Of a stretch of 64,000 bases of DNA, positions 7,098 through 60,565 are shown in pieces. The first letter of the stretch is position 1, and the number at the start of each line of letters is the position of its first letter. A program made the translations under genes and the position numbers. Below the pieces are notes generated by a model, which was given only the letters and a program-made list of their open reading frames with translations, did not search any database and was not told the origin of the DNA. The DNA comes from Neofusicoccum parvum (Eukaryota > Ascomycota > Dothideomycetes > Botryosphaeriales > Botryosphaeriaceae), in contig CP087208.1 of assembly GCA_020912385.1 (NCBI GenBank), positions 2,790,001-2,854,000 of the forward strand. Direction: 5' to 3'.

Positions 7098-7132
7098 AGC
7101 TCAACGAAAAGAGTGTTGTGACCACCAAAGGA

Positions 7133-7322
7133 GGTTCGCGTCAGGACCAGATAGTGCAATAGGAACGACACCGTGGTACTCTGGAATACCAAGCAAGCTT
7201 AGCAACCAGAGACCAGATTCCAAAAACTGGGTTAATCAGTGATGTGCACGTAGCACGCGTCTAGAGATTAAACTAAACATACGACCACTGCATCTTGATC
7301 TTAGCCAAATGGCAAGAGAGCT
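7133..7322 (-). ncRNA. U2-like snRNA, variant A
   Basis: About 190 nt, the usual U2 length. Landmarks in order on the minus strand: stem I loop GCC-ATTT-GGC, the invariant stretch CTAAGATCAAG, a branch-recognition region reading GCAGTGG instead of GTAGTAT, stem-loop IIa with TTTAATCT in its loop, a IIb-type hairpin GTGC-TACGT-GCAC, ATTAACCCAGTTTTTGGA around the Sm site, a stem III closed by CTCTGG/CCAGAG, and the stem IV loop TATTGCACTATC. Compared with variants B and C, stem III bases differ but pairing is kept. The branch region is the most altered of the three (GTCGTATG follows GCAGTG), so this may be a specialised or decaying copy. Confidence 0.75.
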
Positions 7323-7360
7323 GAAGAAGAAAAGAGGAGTTGGTGCTGGGGGGAAGAGGG

Positions 7361-11289: not shown

Positions 11290-11373
11290 TGCCCACACCC
11301 GGAATCGAACCAGGGATCTTCGCATTACCGTTTTTGTTACGAGTGCGACGCTGTACCACTAAGCCATGCGGGC
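11290..11373 (-). tRNA. tRNA-Thr(CGT) with a 12-nt intron
   Basis: Acceptor stem GCCCGCA/TGTGGGC with discriminator A, D stem GCT/AGC, anticodon stem TCGCA/TGCGA, T arm CCTGG-TTCGATT-CCGGG. The anticodon loop CTCGTAA carries anticodon CGT, and 12 extra nucleotides after it form the normal tRNA-endonuclease intron position. This gene is ordinary and is a useful contrast to the two interrupted tRNAs at 37 kb. Its 3' half and flank are repeated in inverted orientation at 11495-11569. Confidence 0.85.
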
Positions 11374-11494
11374 GATTGACAGGTCAGGTGATGGGCAATA
11401 GTCGCTATAGTAGCAGCGCTATTTTCCATGGAAAATGCTTCGAAAATGATGGATTTCGTGATACGGTTGAGTTTTCTGCATCGCATCCCGCAAG

Positions 11495-11569
11495 AAAAAC
11501 AGTAATGCGAAGATCCCTGGTTCGATTCCAGGTGTGGGCAGCCTGATCAGTACTGCTCCGTGGAGCGGC
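11495..11569 (+). pseudogene. tRNA-Thr 3'-half copy (inverted duplicate)
   Basis: About 75 bp match the 3' half of the tRNA-Thr gene plus some 30 bp of its downstream flank (TGCGAAGATCCCTGG through GCCTGATCAGTAC), in the opposite orientation and about 160 bp away. The intron region and T stem differ by transitions (CGG to CAG, CCGGG to CCAGG). There is no D arm or acceptor 5' strand and position 33 is not T, so it is not a second gene. Confidence 0.75.
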
Positions 11570-18565: not shown

Positions 18566-18603
18566 TAGAGTGACGAAAAGAAAGATAAGCTTGAAGTCAA
18601 GCG

Positions 18604-18796
18604 TGTTCGAGTCAGGACCAAGTAGTGCAATAGGAACGACACTGTGGCCGCTGGTATGAGCGAGCTCAGTGACCACCAGCGCTATTTCCAAAAATTGGGT
18701 TAATCAGTAGTGTGCCCGTAGACACGTCCTAGAGATTAAACTAAGAAGAACCGTCACTGCATCTTGATCTAAGCCAAAAAAGGCAAAGAGAGAGCT
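18604..18796 (-). ncRNA. U2-like snRNA, variant B
   Basis: About 193 nt. It has stem I GCC-TTTTTT-GGC, GGCTTAGATCAAG, branch region GCAGTGACGGTTC (normal U2: GTAGTATCTGTTC), IIa CTTAG-TTTAATCT-CTAGG, IIb GTGTC-TACG-GGCAC, an exact Sm-type site AATTTTTGG, stem III CGCTGG/CCAGCG enclosing TGAG-CTCG-CTCA, and the stem IV loop TATTGCACTAC. The IIb stem has a compensatory A-U to G-C exchange relative to variant C. Confidence 0.75.
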
Positions 18797-26788: not shown

Positions 26789-29433
26789 ATGGGCGATCAG
26801 CATTCCCCGGCTGGGATCGGCATCCAGGCCGACGACCGCAGATCCGACACCCGGCCCACCCTGTCGTCGTCCGCCGAGCCGCAGCAGCAGCACCAGCACC
26901 ACAGCCGGGCAGACAGCGGCGAGCCCGCGGGCAGGCCGGCCAAGCGCCGCAAGGAGAGCCACGTCCGCAGCCGAGTCAGCCGGGCCTGCGACCGGTGCAA
27001 GTCGTGAGTAACCACCCGCGTCCCCTGCCTTCCCGCGCCGCACACACACACTCGTCTGACGCAAACCGCCAATCCTGCCGGGCGGCGCCCCCGTAGACGC
27101 AAGACGCGATGCTCGGGCAAGTACCCGTGCACCCTCTGCTCGCAGCTGGGCCTGGAGTGCCAGTACGAGGCGGCCTACACGCGCGGCCGGCTGCCGTCCA
27201 TCGAGGTCGAGACGGACGACCGCGTGCTCCAGATGGCCGCGACGCGGCGCCACAGCACGCCGGCAACGACGACGACGACGACGGCCGCTGCGAGGAATCC
27301 CGGCGGCGGCGGTGTTGAGGACGCAGGTGCCCTGCCCATCCCCAGCCCCATCAGCATCGAGCACCACCAGCTGCCCGACGTGCCGGCCGCGCAGGCGCCG
27401 CTGCGCCTCTCGCACGGCGCCAACTCGACGGCCCAGTCGTCGCGCAACTCGCCCGAGCCGTCGCAGAACGACCAGCAGGGCCACTACGTGGGGCCGGCGT
27501 CCGGCGCGTCGTTCCTGCTGCGCATCCAGCGGAAGCTGGTGCACCAGCAGTCGCTGTCGTCCGAGTCGTCCATCTTCACGTTCGGCGACCTGCCGCTGCC
27601 GGACTTCGACCCGTCGTTTTTCATCCTGCCGCCGCAGGCCGATGCCGAGGCGTTGCTGGCGAGGTATTTTGACTTTGCGTCCGCGACCCATCGCTTCTTG
27701 CATCGGCCGACGGTGGAGGGCTGGCTGCGGGAGCTGTACGAGACTAATGGGTCAATGCGGCAGAAGGCGACGGCGAGGAGCCGGATGGCCCTGCTGTTCA
27801 TGGTGTTTGCGCAGGCGGGGAACTATCACAAACCGGGGATGACCAGCCGGGAACATTCGAGGTGGGTGTCTCGTCTCTCCACATGTCGTGATGCATGTTC
27901 TGATGCTAGAGACAGTGCGAGATTCTTTTCGGCGGCGGAGCACCAGCTGTCGGCGGAGAAGGGGGAGATCCGTCTCACGAGTGTGCAGGCGCGGCTGGCT
28001 CAGTGCTTCTGGCTGTTGGGTCAGTCGCGCATCAACCATTGCTGGAGTCTGTTCGGGACCACTGCGCATCTCGTTCTTGCTCTTGGTATGCACAGAAAGA
28101 GGCGGATAGATTCCAGTCACAGCGTTGACTACATTGATCTTGAATGTAGGAAGCGGACGTTCTGGTGTGCTTACAACCTCGACACATATCTGAGTGCTGC
28201 GCTGGGGAGACCGCGGACTTTTCATGACGAGGATCTTGACCAGGTATTTATATGCCAGTTCCTACTGACTAATAGTACATGCAGCTAAATCATGCACTTT
28301 AGGAAATTCCGACGTGTGTGAATGACTCGGACCTGCATTGCCGACAGATGCATCCGTCGTCTATCAAGTCACAGTCCTTAATGTCGGCATGTATTGCACA
28401 CTTGAAGTATGTTTTGCTCTCCATGGGTCAAATTTCTTGCTGACGACAGCCAGACTGTCAAAAATACTGGCCAACATACTTCGAGATCTATACGGCATCA
28501 AGCCTCCTTCCTCTGATGATCGCTATAGACTCGCTGCCAAATACAACGAGGAACTCAACGATTGGCGAGCGGCTCTCGCTTACCACCTGGACACGGATGG
28601 TGTTGATCCGTCTCTCTTTCTCCCAATTTTTCTGCGGCAGAGGAATGTTTTGAATCTTGCATTCTGGCATGCTCAAATACTCGTTCACCGTCCCTTCCTT
28701 CTCTCCAACTTTGCCGGCTTGACCAACTACAGCATCAACCGTAGCCGGCTTTCTGGGAATAACAAGCTAGCATACCACGTTCAGCGCTGCCTCGATGCAG
28801 CAACCAACATTGTCCGCGTGGTTGACGAGCTCACCAACTCCGGTCAGATATTCAGCACCTACTGGGTGAGCCATCCCTTTCCCTCATAGAGGAATTTCTG
28901 CTGAGTGTCATTAGTTTACTCACTACTTCGCATTCTGCGCTGTGGTTGTCCTGTACGTCTATGTAATTCAACAACGCCACTCCCCTCCGGAAGCCTACCT
29001 CCATCACTTCCGCGCCGCCGTCAAATGCCAGGACCAGATCTCCGACATCGCAACAAAGGGCTCCCTGGCCGAGCGGTACGGCGTTGTGCTGCAAGAATTG
29101 CGCTTAGAGCTGCTGAGGCACAATGAATACCTGGCAGGACAGGGGCACGCTGCTCTATCCTTGCTCACGAGTGATCTTGTGTTCCCGGTGGCCGGTTCGC
29201 AAGATCATCATGCTCCACTAAGCGCAGGTATCCCCGGGTCAGATCATCTCGGCCAGATGGGCCATGATGCATTTGCAGAGGCCAGCCCGAGCAGCTCGAT
29301 TGCACAGCTTACCGGATGGGGGCAGTTCGACTCTTTGGTTACCGGCGGAATTGGGAGCCTCGAGACTCTCCTTGCCGATAGCGCTGCAGGTTGGGACCTT
29401 GACTTGGGTGGAAACTTGGGCACTATGGCGTAA
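26789..29433 (+). CDS. Zn2Cys6 transcription activator with fungal middle homology domain
   Basis: Six exons: 26789-27003, 27097-27861, 27910-28243, 28303-28406, 28454-28865 and 28915-29433, in frame to 782 aa. The zinc cluster (residues about 67-95) is split by intron 1: CDRCKS joined to RKTRCSGKYPCTLCSQLGLEC. A Pro/Ser/Gln linker with a Thr run from ACG repeats follows. The middle homology domain begins near LLARYFDFASATHRFLHRPTVEGWL and includes ALGMHRKR and ECRKRTFWCAYNLDTYLSAALGRPRTFHDEDLDQ. These are nuclear activators of nearby pathway genes. Its location between the AKR and NRPS-like genes makes it the likely cluster regulator. Intron 3 (27862-27909) is 48 nt without a stop, so unspliced mRNA would stay in frame. 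Confidence 0.88.
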
Positions 29434-29918: not shown

Positions 29919-32900
29919 ATGTTGGTCTCCGCTACTTCCACACCGTCCGGCCTGGATGCGCCAAACGCATCCAAGGTGTCGCAGCCAGAGCAAATCAACA
30001 GCATAAACGACCTCCTCATCCACAAAGCAGAGACAATACCAAAGACGCCCTTAATTGCCTACCCCGCATCCGATCATGGCAGCGGTGATCTAGTGGACTA
30101 CACGGCGAAGGACCTGGACAACTTTGTGGACGAGGCCGCCAAGGAGTACACTCGTCTGGGGCTCCTACCAAAGGTCAGCATACACGAAACCCCAAAGCAG
30201 CACACACTAACAGCGCTCAGGAACGCCGCAGCAACAAAAGCGAAGTCGTCGCCCTCCTCGGCCCCTCCAACCTCGACTACGTCATCACCCTCCTCGCGCT
30301 CTCGCGCATGGGCTTCGCCGTGCTCTTCCTGTCGACCCGCCTCCCGACCGAAGCCTACGTCTCTCTGCTGCAGAAGACGTCCTGCAGCGCCATCGTCGCG
30401 GCGCCGCGCTTCGCCAGCACGGTCGCGGCGATCCAAGCCACCGACTTCCTGATCACGTCGTTCCCGCAGGTGGGGCAGGAGGCGTACGGGCGGCGGGCGT
30501 CGGGGCCGCGGTTCGCGCGGCAGACCACGCTGGTGGACGAGGAGCGGTGCGTGGCGTTCATCGTGCACTCGTCGGGCAGCACGGGGCTGCCGAAGCCCAT
30601 CTTCCAGACGCACCGGGCGTGCCTGTCCAACTACGCGCTGGGCTCGGGCATGCGCGCGTTCGTGACGCTGCCGCTGTTCCACAACCACGGCCTCGCCACC
30701 ACCTTCCGCGGCGTCGTGTCGGGCATGCGCACCGTGCTGTACAACGCAAACCTGCCGCTGACGAATGCGAACTTGGTGGAGGCGCTGCGCGCCGCGGAGC
30801 CCGAGAGCTTCCACTGCGTGCCGTACGCGCTGAAGGTGCTGGCGGAGACGGAGGAGGGGGTTGAGGCGCTGCGGAGGTGCAGGCTTGTGCTGTTCGGCGG
30901 GAGCAGCTGTCCGGATGATCTGGGCGATCTGCTGGTCGGGAGGGGCGTGTATCTGGTCGGGCACTACGGCGCGTGAGTGATGATCCCCGGACAGTCTCGT
31001 TCAGGGGGTTTGGACACTGATCTTGAATGTGTAGCACCGAGATGGGCCAGCTGATGACCTCGTTCCGCGACCCCGAGGACAAGGCCTGGAACTACGTCAG
31101 GCCGCTGCCCAAGGTCAAGCCGTTCCTGCGCTTCGTCGAGAGCGCCCCGGGCATCTTCGAGTGCGTCGTGCTGGACGGCCTGCCCAGCAAGGTCATCTCG
31201 AACAGCGACGACCCGCCCAACTCGTTCCACACCAGAGACACGTTTGTCAAGCACCCCAGCATCCCGGACGCGTGGAAGTACCTGGGCCGTCTGGACGACC
31301 GCGTCACGCTGGTCAACGGCGAGAAGGTGCTGCCCATCCCGTATGAGCACCAGGTGCGCCAGAGCGAGCTGGTGCAGGATTGCCTCGTGTTTGGCGTTGA
31401 TCGCGCGTTTCCGGGGCTGCTGATTGTGCCGAGCGAGAAGGCGGAGGGACTGGGGAAGGAGGAGTTGGTGGAGAAGCTGATGCCGGCAATCAAGACGGCG
31501 AATTCGAGGGCGGAGAAATTTGGCCAGATTTCGCGCGAGATGATTGAGGTGTTGGACGTCGGGACAGACTACCCGCGGACGGACAAAGGGACGATGATTC
31601 GTGCGGCGTGCTACATGAAGTTCGCGGATATCATCGATGCCGTGTACGTGCGCTTCGAGTCTGGCGACGGCAAGCAGAAGAGGAAGCTGGATCTCGAGGG
31701 GCTGCAGTCGTATCTCACAGACCTCTTCACCAACCGCGTCGGCGTCGAGGGCCTGAGCTTGGAGACGGACTTCTTCGATGCTGGCACAGACAGCTTGCAA
31801 GCCATCGCCGCCCGCGGCCACATGCAGCGTGAGCTCGACCTGAGCGGCGCCGTCCTGGGCCAGAACGTTGTCTTCGAGCACCCATCCATCTCACAGCTCG
31901 CAGCGCACCTCGACGCCCTCGCAAACGGCTCCGCTGTCCAGCAAAAGTCCGAAATCGAGCTCATGCAAGAGCTTGTCGCGCAGTACTCCGACTTCCCGGC
32001 CTTCACGCCCGACACCGCCATCCCGTCCAGCGACACCGTCCTCCTCACCGGCGCCACCGGCTCCCTGGGAGCGCATATCCTCGCCCAGCTCCTCCCCCTC
32101 CCGCACATCACCCGTATCTACTGCCTCGTCCGCGCGCCCGACGCCGCCGCCGCGCACGCCCGCGTCCTCGCCAGCCTCTCCACCCGGCGCCTCTCGCCGC
32201 CACACCTCGCCACCAAGCTCCTCGCCCTGCCCTCAGACCTCAGCGACCCGCACCTCGGCCTCGACGAGCCCACCTACGCCCTCATCCGCTCGACCCTCAC
32301 CTCCGCCATCCACGCCGCCTGGGCCGTCAACTTCAACCTCGGCGTCTCCTCCTTCGCCGCCCACCACATCCGCGGCACGCACCACCTGCTCCGCCTGTGC
32401 GCCGCCGTGCCGTTCGCCCGCCCCGCCCGCTTCGCCTTCGTCTCCTCCATCTCCGCCGGCGCCGGCACGCCCATCCCGGCGTCGGGCGCCGCCGCCGTCG
32501 TGCCCGAGTCCCTCGTCGCCGACCCGGCCCACGCCCAGCCCATGGGCTACGCCCGCAGCAAGTGGGTCGCCGAGCACGTGGTGGCCGCCGCGCGCGCCCG
32601 CGCCGCCGTCGAGGCCCGCGTCCTGCGCACCGGCCAGATCGTCGGCGATACCGCGCACGGCGTGTGGAACGCGACTGAGGCTATCCCGTTGATGATTCGG
32701 GCTGCGGTTGGCGTGGGGGCGCTGCCGGCGTTGGACGAGCGGCCGGCGTGGTTGCCGGTGGATCGCTGCGCGGAGGCGGTGGTGGAGCTGAGTGCGGTGG
32801 GGAAGGCGTGGGTGGAGGGCCCGGTGGGTGGGGATGAGGGGGTGGTGTATCATGTGCAGAATTCGAGGACGTTTGCGTGGACGGAGGACTTGTTGCCGGC

Positions 32901-33174
32901 GCTGAGGGAGGCGGGGTTGCGGTTTGAGGTTGTGGGGCAGAGGGAGTGGGTGAGGCGGTTGAGGGAGGGTGAGCAGGATCCGAGGAAGAATCCGACGGTG
33001 AAGTTGGTGGATTTCTTTGCTGAGAAGTATGATAATGATAGGCCGGGGAGGAAGGGGTTGGTGTTTGCGACGGAGAAGACGGGGGAGAGGAGTGCGGTTA
33101 TCAAGGAGGGTGTGGATGTGATTGAGACGGGAGTGGTGAGGAAGTGTGTCGAGGAGTGGGTTAAGGATTGGTAG
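29919..33174 (+). CDS. NRPS-like carboxylic acid reductase (A-T-R)
   Basis: Three exons, 29919-30173, 30221-30972 and 31035-33174, give 1048 aa, typical of single-module adenylation-thiolation-reductase enzymes. Adenylation domain: residues about 25-500 with core A3 SSGSTGLPKP near residue 200 and HYGATEMG near 335, spanning the second intron. Thiolation domain: phosphopantetheine serine in GTDSLQA near residue 588. Thioester reductase: TGATGSLGAH near 674 for NADPH binding and YARSKWVAEH near 840 with the catalytic Tyr and Lys. There is no condensation domain. The enzyme should activate one carboxylic acid, tether it and release an aldehyde (or alcohol). The acid is unknown; aryl or amino acids are usual in the family. 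Confidence 0.92.
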
Positions 33175-36940: not shown

Positions 36941-37073
36941 GGCGTTGTGGCGGAGTGTGAGTACATTCATTCAACACCTGCACAACATCGATACTGATAA
37001 TCTACCAGGGTTAACGCGACAGACTAGAAATCTGTTTCCTTCGGGAGCGCAGGTTCGAATCCTGCCGACGTCG
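36941..37073 (+). tRNA. tRNA-Ser(AGA) interrupted in the D loop
   Basis: Exon parts 36941-36956 and 37009-37073. Acceptor GGCGTTG/CGACGTC (two G-U pairs) with discriminator G, D stem GCG/CGC, anticodon arm ACAGA-CTAGAAA-TCTGT (anticodon AGA), a long variable arm TTCCTTCGGGAG as in serine tRNAs, and T arm GCAGG-TTCGAAT-CCTGC. A 52-nt insert sits inside the D loop. Removing it leaves GAGTGGTTAA, the standard serine D loop. The D-stem pair differs from the usual GCC/GGC in a compensated way, which argues for a working tRNA. The insert splits the Pol III A box; the B box is intact. Confidence 0.85.
36957..37008 (+). other. GT-AG (spliceosome-type) intron inside tRNA-Ser
   Basis: 52 nt, donor GTGAGT, branch-like TACTGAT (36993-36999), acceptor TACCAG. 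Length and signals match the mRNA introns of this window. It is not at the 37/38 position used by tRNA endonuclease. Confidence 0.75.
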
Positions 37074-37075
37074 AG

Positions 37076-37082
37076 TTCTTTT
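37076..37082 (+). terminator. Pol III T-run after tRNA-Ser
   Basis: TTCTTTT starts 3 nt after the discriminator base. Confidence 0.6.
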
Positions 37083-37499: not shown

Positions 37500-37666
37500 G
37501 CAGCTTTAGCTCACTTGGGAGAGCGCCAGGTAAGCCTCAACACCATCAGCTGCCGATCTCAGCATTCACTAACAATTCATCAGACTGAAGTCCACTTCGG
37601 CCCAACGCCTGCCACAGCCATCTGTGCGGTATCTGGAGGTACTGTGTTCGATCCACAGAAGCTGCA
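37500..37666 (+). tRNA. tRNA-Phe(GAA) with two introns
   Basis: Exon parts 37500-37529, 37584-37590 and 37631-37666. All stems pair perfectly after removal of both inserts: acceptor GCAGCTT/AAGCTGC, D GCTC/GAGC, anticodon CCAGA/TCTGG with loop CTGAAGA (GAA), T CTGTG/CACAG with loop TTCGATC, discriminator A. The A box (TAGCTCACTTGGG) and B box are complete. The 40-nt insert 37591-37630 is a normal tRNA intron after position 37 and contains TTC, able to pair with the anticodon. The 54-nt insert 37530-37583 is a separate GT-AG intron within the anticodon stem. Confidence 0.88.
37530..37583 (+). other. GT-AG (spliceosome-type) intron inside tRNA-Phe anticodon stem
   Basis: 54 nt between nucleotides 30 and 31 of the tRNA. 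Donor GTAAGC, perfect fungal branch site CACTAAC (37567-37573), acceptor ATCAG ten nucleotides later. Confidence 0.8.
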
Positions 37667-37719
37667 AGGAACTCGAGGTCCTTACCAGTCTCAGACTGGT
37701 CAAAGCCATTCTTTTTGCT

Positions 37720-60304: not shown

Positions 60305-60343
60305 ACCCTTTCACCCGCGGCCCCAGCTCGTCCTTTCTTCTTC

Positions 60344-60532
60344 AGCTCTCTTTGCCTTTTTGGCTTAGATCAAGATGCAGTAACTGTTCTTCTTAGTTTA
60401 ATCTCTAGGATGTACCTACGGGTACCTAGTGATTAAACCAGTTTTTGGGAACTGTGCTGGTGGTCCCTGAGCATCGCTCATACTCCGGCTCACAGTGTCG
60501 CCAGTATTGCACTATCTCTGGCTGACGCAACC
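60344..60532 (+). ncRNA. U2-like snRNA, variant C
   Basis: The best-preserved copy, about 189 nt. Stem I GCC-TTTTT-GGC and TTAGATCAAG are conserved. The branch region GCAGTAACTGTTC differs from normal GTAGTATCTGTTC by two substitutions plus one inserted A upstream. IIa CTTAG-TTTAATCT-CTAGG; IIb GTACC-TACG-GGTAC; ATTAAACCAGTTTTTGGG around the Sm site; stem III ACTGTG/CACAGT enclosing CTGG/CCGG and TGAGC-ATC-GCTCA; stem IV CCAG-TATTGCACTATCT-CTGG. All elements pair, so the RNA should fold as U2. Confidence 0.82.
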
Positions 60533-60565
60533 ACCTTTGATGGCACCGCTCTTTTTCGTTGGATG

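Follow-up and report, generated by a model that had tools for sequence, protein, structure and literature searches.

GT-AG inserts with the signals of spliceosomal introns in tRNA-Phe and other tRNA genes of the fungus Neofusicoccum parvum

The standard view assigns the introns of eukaryotic nuclear tRNA genes to a protein endonuclease and a ligase. The canonical representatives occupy one fixed position, between tRNA nucleotides 37 and 38, are removed by TSEN and ligase, and have neither GT and AG ends nor a branch site. Bacterial and organellar tRNA genes can contain introns of group I or group II, which have a catalytic core of a few hundred nt. Splicing by the spliceosome is usually coupled to RNA polymerase II (Pol II); the U6 snRNA genes of some fungi, which belong to RNA polymerase III (Pol III), also contain spliceosomal introns.

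Fungal U3 snoRNA genes carry spliceosomal introns with signals like those considered here (PMC5832005). The U3 and U6 introns of fungi and the inserts described in this work are all short GT-AG elements with a fungal branch site, hosted by a small structured non-coding RNA. Unlike in those cases, the host here is a tRNA, 17 genes and nine sites are affected, most of the genes also harbor an enzyme-spliced intron, and the insert can carry a B box. U6 in the same genome gave three matches over the cut-off, full length and with no large insert. In Cyanidioschyzon, nucleomorphs and archaea a tRNA gene may contain more than one intron, located away from the canonical position and in some cases disrupting the A and B boxes; in Cyanidioschyzon such disrupted tRNA genes are linked to the BHB motif (PMC3978253), and an alga is described with non-canonical introns, up to three per tRNA gene, whose mode of splicing was not known to the authors (PMC4090602). 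The introns of Cyanidioschyzon and archaea are BHB-tied, whereas the GT-AG inserts described below show no such pairing above shuffled sequences and have spliceosomal signals instead. Searches of open-access PMC full text turned up no description of nuclear tRNA genes with spliceosomal introns, which is not proof of absence.

The window, that is, the whole stretch of 64 kb that was analysed (C3:2790001-2854000), contains a gene for tRNA-Phe(GAA) at positions 37500-37666 of the plus strand. Its first exon (37500-37529; tRNA positions 1-30) includes an intact A box, TAGCTCACTTGG (37507-37518), and is followed, between tRNA positions 30 and 31, by a GT-AG insert of 54 nt (37530-37583) with the donor GTAAGC (37530-37535), the branch site CACTAAC, whose CTAAC (37569-37573; inside TCACTAAC) lies 10 nt before the insert end, and the acceptor CAG (37581-37583); by sequence the insert is a U2-type spliceosomal intron. 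The second exon (37584-37590; positions 31-37, including the anticodon GAA) precedes an ordinary 37/38 tRNA intron of 40 nt (37591-37630), in which an internal CTTCGG can, by eye, pair with CTGAAG of exon 2. The third exon (37631-37666; positions 38-73) holds, by reading, an intact B box, GTTCGATCC (37646-37654), and a TTTTT located 45 nt 3' of the gene (37712-37716) is a candidate Pol III terminator. Once both introns are taken out the RNA forms a cloverleaf with all 21 stem pairs Watson-Crick. The initial annotation had proposed this anatomy, the three splice signals and full stem pairing after removal of both inserts; its coordinates are exact to the nucleotide and the signals and the pairing are all present. 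Its reading of two kinds of intron in one tRNA gene, one of them of spliceosome type, is well supported and proved more general, as shown below.

Conventional searches overlooked the gene. ARAGORN called no tRNA in the whole 64-kb window, and the tRNA-Phe gene was absent from the hits of an Rfam search of the window at the gathering score. When the locus was given to ARAGORN with the GT-AG insert left in, a wrong tRNA-Arg was reported, and with the insert removed a tRNA-Phe(GAA) with a 40-nt 37/38 intron was obtained. As the tRNA finders used here missed or misnamed genes with the insert in place, the tRNA sets of such fungi may be under-annotated.

Five tRNA-Phe genes were located in the genome, all with the same mature sequence, the same first exon and a 37/38 intron. 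Three of them, the window gene on contig C3 and two on the minus strands of C9 (C9:429896-430061) and C10 (C10:920926-921101), contain a GT-AG insert at the same nucleotide (54, 53, and 65 nt, respectively); the other two (C1:2386880 and C9:471350) are free of it. The donors are GTAAGC, GTTAGT, and GTAAGC, and CTAAC and CAG occur in all three. Pairwise, the inserts are 53–62% identical (shuffled mean 49%, maximum 57–59%) and the exons 100%; the inserts are nearly saturated with change, but donor, CTAAC, and CAG are retained. A scan of the IMG/VR collection gave seven matches to an 18-nt Phe exon-donor pattern and none to the uninterrupted Phe control, which makes that collection uninformative.

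The genome-wide survey for further tRNA genes with an extra GT-AG insert, which the initial annotation had suggested, covered a single genome (44.0 Mb in 18 contigs) and drew on Rfam tRNA hits, BLAST with tRNA queries and matches to a B-box pattern, the sequences behind the hits being read. Forty-five of the 49 Rfam tRNA hits were run through ARAGORN; the other four, of 72–81 nt, are too short to hold an insert. The first B-box scan produced 65 matches (13 in the reversed control), of which 36 were new and all 36 were read. Further scans produced 17 matches (control 19), four of them read, and 106 (control 82), 100 of them listed and 16 read; these 20 regions contained four Gln(CTG)-like genes, none with a GT-AG insert. 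In total, 98 tRNA genes were located (49 Rfam hits + 5 + 3 + 1 + 9 + 27 + 4), a count that excludes degenerate fragments and includes one odd Arg(CCT) gene. Asn, Tyr, Ile(AAT), Lys(TTT), elongator Met and others are not among them, and the proportions given here are shares of located genes.

A GT-AG insert is present in 17 of the 98 located genes, at nine sites whose tRNA position numbers were assigned from the stems: 30/31 in the three Phe genes and Glu(TTC), 25/26 in three Leu(CAG) genes, 24/25 in two initiator Met genes (iMet, on C2 and C13) and Val(CAC), 20/21 in His(GTG), 19/20 in Ala(AGC), 16/18 in Ser(AGA), 11/12 in Ser(GCT), 9/10 in Ala(TGC), and 57/58, in the T loop, in Pro(TGG) and Ala(CGC). 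The insert of the window tRNA-Phe gene is thus real and no lone oddity, and a single-locus accident was rejected since further interrupted Phe and other tRNA genes were found. An eighteenth candidate, the Arg(CCT) gene on C10 (C10:1506214), has GTAAGT and CACTAAC in the D loop; the junction that would restore a good tRNA ends in CG, not AG, and this gene, possibly a decaying interrupted one, was not counted among the 17. According to ARAGORN, 13 of the 17 interrupted genes contain a canonical 37/38 intron in addition. Elsewhere in the genome, seven tRNA-Gly(GCC) genes were seen to have diverged, unusually long 37/38 introns (62–71 nt, ARAGORN).

The Ser(AGA) gene lies in the same window and on the same strand as tRNA-Phe, its end being 426 bp upstream of the latter. 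The model match spans 36941-37073 and comprises exon 1 (36941-36956), which ends in the D loop, a 52-nt insert at D-loop positions 16/18 (36957-37008) with GTGAGT, CTGAT, and CAG, and exon 2 (37009-37073), which includes the B box GTTCGAATC (37053-37061). A TTTT at 37079-37082 is its candidate terminator, and a sister gene on C1 has the exact empty junction.

The insert boundaries are fixed by sister genes of this kind. For 10 of the 17 genes an uninterrupted sister presents the exact empty junction, which was matched over 12+12 nt for one Phe, both iMet, Ser(AGA), Ala(AGC), Ala(CGC), and Glu(TTC), over 11+12 nt for Ser(GCT), the first exon of which measures 11 nt, and over 8+8 nt for the two remaining Phe genes. 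The sequences compared included no sister with an empty junction for Leu, Pro, Val, Ala(TGC), or His, and in these genes the boundary was taken from the cloverleaf. With the insert removed, ARAGORN recognized a full-length tRNA in 17/17 cases and the expected anticodon in 14/17, the exceptions being Ser(GCT), Ala(AGC), and Ala(TGC), which were named otherwise because the 37/38 intron was placed elsewhere; the unspliced sequences yielded the correct identity in 0/17. As 16 or 17 of the 17 tRNAs were still found when the boundaries were shifted by up to 4 nt, the program is too tolerant to fix them alone. With the insert taken out and G-U allowed, the acceptor stem is complete (7/7) in 16 of the 17 and the T stem (5/5) in all. 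The acceptor stem of Ala(TGC) contains a T.T mismatch. The anticodon stem of His(GTG), by eye, ends in a mismatch, and the downstream region of up to 60 nt examined for this gene has no T run; these two genes may be decaying.

The inserts measure 52–65 nt and share one set of signals. All 17 begin with a donor of the form GTNNGY and end with YAG, with the proviso that the candidate genes were found by tRNA similarity and an AG was required when the 17 were tabulated; a CTRAY branch site is present in 16, Ala(AGC) having TTAAC, and the distance from branch site to insert end is 10–15 nt. Among window segments of these lengths on both strands, 13 of 1,023,100 (1.3e-5), not purged of real introns, meet a strict version of the three signals. 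This frequency, together with the finding of such an insert at the identical site in two more Phe genes, led to the rejection of a chance GT-AG.

The same signals occur in mRNA introns of the window. An NRPS-like protein is encoded at 31027-33174 (97% identical to a Neofusicoccum ribis protein and 78% to one of Macrophomina phaseolina, which places the genome in or near Neofusicoccum, in the Botryosphaeriaceae), and its gene has two introns, placed by means of the N. ribis protein, that read GTCAGC..CACTAAC..CAG and GTGAGT..ACTGAT..TAG. The insert lengths lie within those of 17 heuristic mRNA-like introns (45–109 nt, median 59), a rough set in which one member is the Leu insert on C17, one runs antisense over a Phe gene on C9 and two overlap. 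When inserts from different sites were compared with one another, three cross-site pairs scored 11–12, a level that 0.07% of 3000 shuffled pairs attained; they are not taken as a sign of common origin, as 136 pairs were compared and the shared branch-site sequence contributes to the score.

The inserts are very probably U2-type spliceosomal introns residing in Pol III tRNA genes and removed by the spliceosome, with TSEN and ligase acting on the 37/38 intron, most likely later. In the pathway we propose, Pol III would transcribe the interrupted genes from their A and B boxes, the spliceosome would excise the short GT-AG intron in the nucleus and join the tRNA exons, and TSEN and ligase would then remove the 37/38 intron where there is one. 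Introns would be kept at sites where the Pol III promoter survives, which lie between A box and B box or, where the intron supplies a B box, at the B box itself. In budding yeast the tRNA endonuclease resides outside the nucleus; this location and the disturbance of the anticodon arm by the insert are the grounds on which we infer that the spliceosome would act first. The initial annotation had gone further, proposing that the anticodon stem cannot form, and the endonuclease cannot act, until the GT-AG intron is gone. Such an order is plausible, and in the fold predicted for the full Phe precursor the D and anticodon arms do deviate from the cloverleaf; its forced character stands less well, for in principle all but one of the five anticodon-stem pairs remain able to form.

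The choice of polymerase bears on the rival that fares best, in which the spliceosome does splice the inserts, but from Pol II transcripts running over the locus, the Pol III transcripts being dead ends. The general link of spliceosomal splicing to Pol II speaks for it, as does the failure of a strict A-box pattern in the interrupted Ser(AGA) and Ala(TGC) genes. That pattern is nevertheless matched in 15 of the 17 genes. The Ser(GCT) insert falls within the A box; there, exon and insert together re-form TGGCGTATGTGG, which matches the A-box pattern. A run of at least four T is found in the downstream region of up to 60 nt in 14/17 genes, plus Ala(CGC) by reading. TTTT occurs in 0/17 inserts and 1/17 mRNA-like introns; its absence from the inserts fits Pol III and proves nothing, since mRNA-like introns are free of it almost as often. 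The B box is left whole by 15 of the 17 inserts, and both inserts that split it, the 57/58 inserts of Pro and Ala(CGC), contain GTTCRANNC at offset 11 or 12, a motif seen in none of the other 15 inserts and in none of the 17 heuristic mRNA-like introns. At its background in the window (1.3e-4 per base) and with about 47 start sites, one such match has a chance of about 0.006 and two of two about 4e-5. Inserts that bring their own B box where they break the original suggest transcription by Pol III, and in view of the downstream T runs in most genes as well, Pol II read-over is unlikely as the source of any spliced RNA.

It is very unlikely that the interrupted genes are dead copies, that is, spare tRNA genes into which intron-like DNA has fallen while only the intact sisters work. 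Uninterrupted sisters are indeed available for Phe, iMet, Ser(AGA), Ser(GCT), Ala(AGC), Ala(CGC), and Glu(TTC); stem mismatches or a missing AG mark His(GTG), Ala(TGC), and the uncounted Arg(CCT); and the interrupted Pro gene is accompanied about 230 bp downstream, at about 1735-1850 of locus L103 (C16:171681 onward), by a degenerate tRNA-Pro copy with C-to-T changes such as repeat-induced point mutation would leave. The initial annotation had named intact Phe genes elsewhere, with the window locus a dead copy, as a finding that would speak against it. The insert-free Phe genes on C1 and C9 bear out half of this; the interrupted copies do not look dead, given that their exons are identical, their insert bodies diverged and their splice signals kept.

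Dead genes would lose exons and signals at an equal rate, and the signals are kept in all 17 genes. The exons, judged from the sequences, do not drift along with the inserts: the three interrupted Phe genes combine 100% identical exons with 53–62% identical inserts, the two iMet genes combine identical exons with inserts 58% identical, and the Leu inserts are 64–75% identical. Relative to the intact iMet gene on C1, the interrupted ones show paired changes in their acceptor and T stems. The acceptor stem of the interrupted Leu(CAG) gene on C16 reads GGGAAGA/TCTTCTC, against GGCGAGG/CCTCGTC in the other two, which amounts to three double compensatory changes with every pair kept and the insert retained at the same site. 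All three located Leu(CAG) genes are interrupted; the Leu BLAST query would reveal a near-identical intact copy, and having missed the diverged C16 gene it could also miss a diverged intact one.

The junctions were also compared with those of endonuclease-type introns, using as controls eight hand-picked 37/38 introns of the same genome. Of four central pairs, the inserts form 1.65 on average, shuffled sequences 1.56 and the controls 2.38; the anticodon-intron-type (A-I) pair is found in 5/17 inserts vs. 7/8 controls, and the exon helix scores 1.53 of 3 in the inserts vs. 3.0 of 3 in the controls. All four central pairs are present in 0/17 inserts and in 1/8 controls, for which reason their absence is not decisive and the contrast rests on the A-I pair and the exon helix. 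Endonuclease-type (TSEN/BHB) introns were accordingly rejected, the junction pairing being at the level of shuffles. That the tRNA splicing endonuclease cuts the inserts as atypical tRNA introns in unusual places, like those of red algae, nucleomorphs and archaea, is highly improbable: one pathway would then do all the processing, positions other than 37/38 and more than one intron per gene are described in those groups (PMC3978253 and PMC4090602) and five inserts have an A-I type pair, but the same-genome 37/38 introns score higher at their junctions, and GT, CTRAY, and AG in gene after gene would be left unexplained. Group I and group II introns, also tRNA-gene introns not removed by TSEN, differ in being self-splicing and much longer, and were rejected since 52–65 nt is too short for either.

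Quite likely, about one in six of the located tRNA genes, including two initiator and the three located Leu(CAG) genes, make their tRNA by way of the spliceosome. Pol III transcripts would then be routine spliceosome substrates, many tRNAs would need two machineries in series, and introns that break the promoter would be tolerated when they bring a B box of their own. The insert is absent from two of the five Phe genes and from sister genes in most of the other isotypes, so most interrupted genes may not be needed. Pol III transcripts would on this account be open to intron gain, a single tRNA could rely on two splicing pathways, and stress on splicing could reach translation by way of the tRNA supply. 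With nine sites, near-identical exons and empty sister genes in one genome, the set would constitute a natural experiment on intron gain, provided that the introns were gained at these sites rather than lost from the sisters.

Other features came to light in the course of the searches. A weak tRNA-model match at window position 29060 (19.4 bits) lies inside an ORF, has no tRNA features by eye and was rejected. One repeat with eight copies has a B-box-like GGGTTCAATTCCC followed by a T run; it is not a tRNA and is perhaps a mobile element with a Pol III-like end. Two window loci, 11486-11540 (+) and 11290-11373 (-), hold between them a tRNA-Thr(CGT) gene, whose 37/38 intron measures 12 nt, and a 3' half-copy of that tRNA; the half-copy is on the opposite strand, a little over 100 bp away, and has no visible 5' half. 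The window also contains three U2 snRNA-like genes, at 60342-60536 (+), 18600-18796 (-), and 7130-7324 (-), with scores of 114.5, 98.3, and 72.4 bits, respectively, the lower-scoring of which may be variants or decaying copies.
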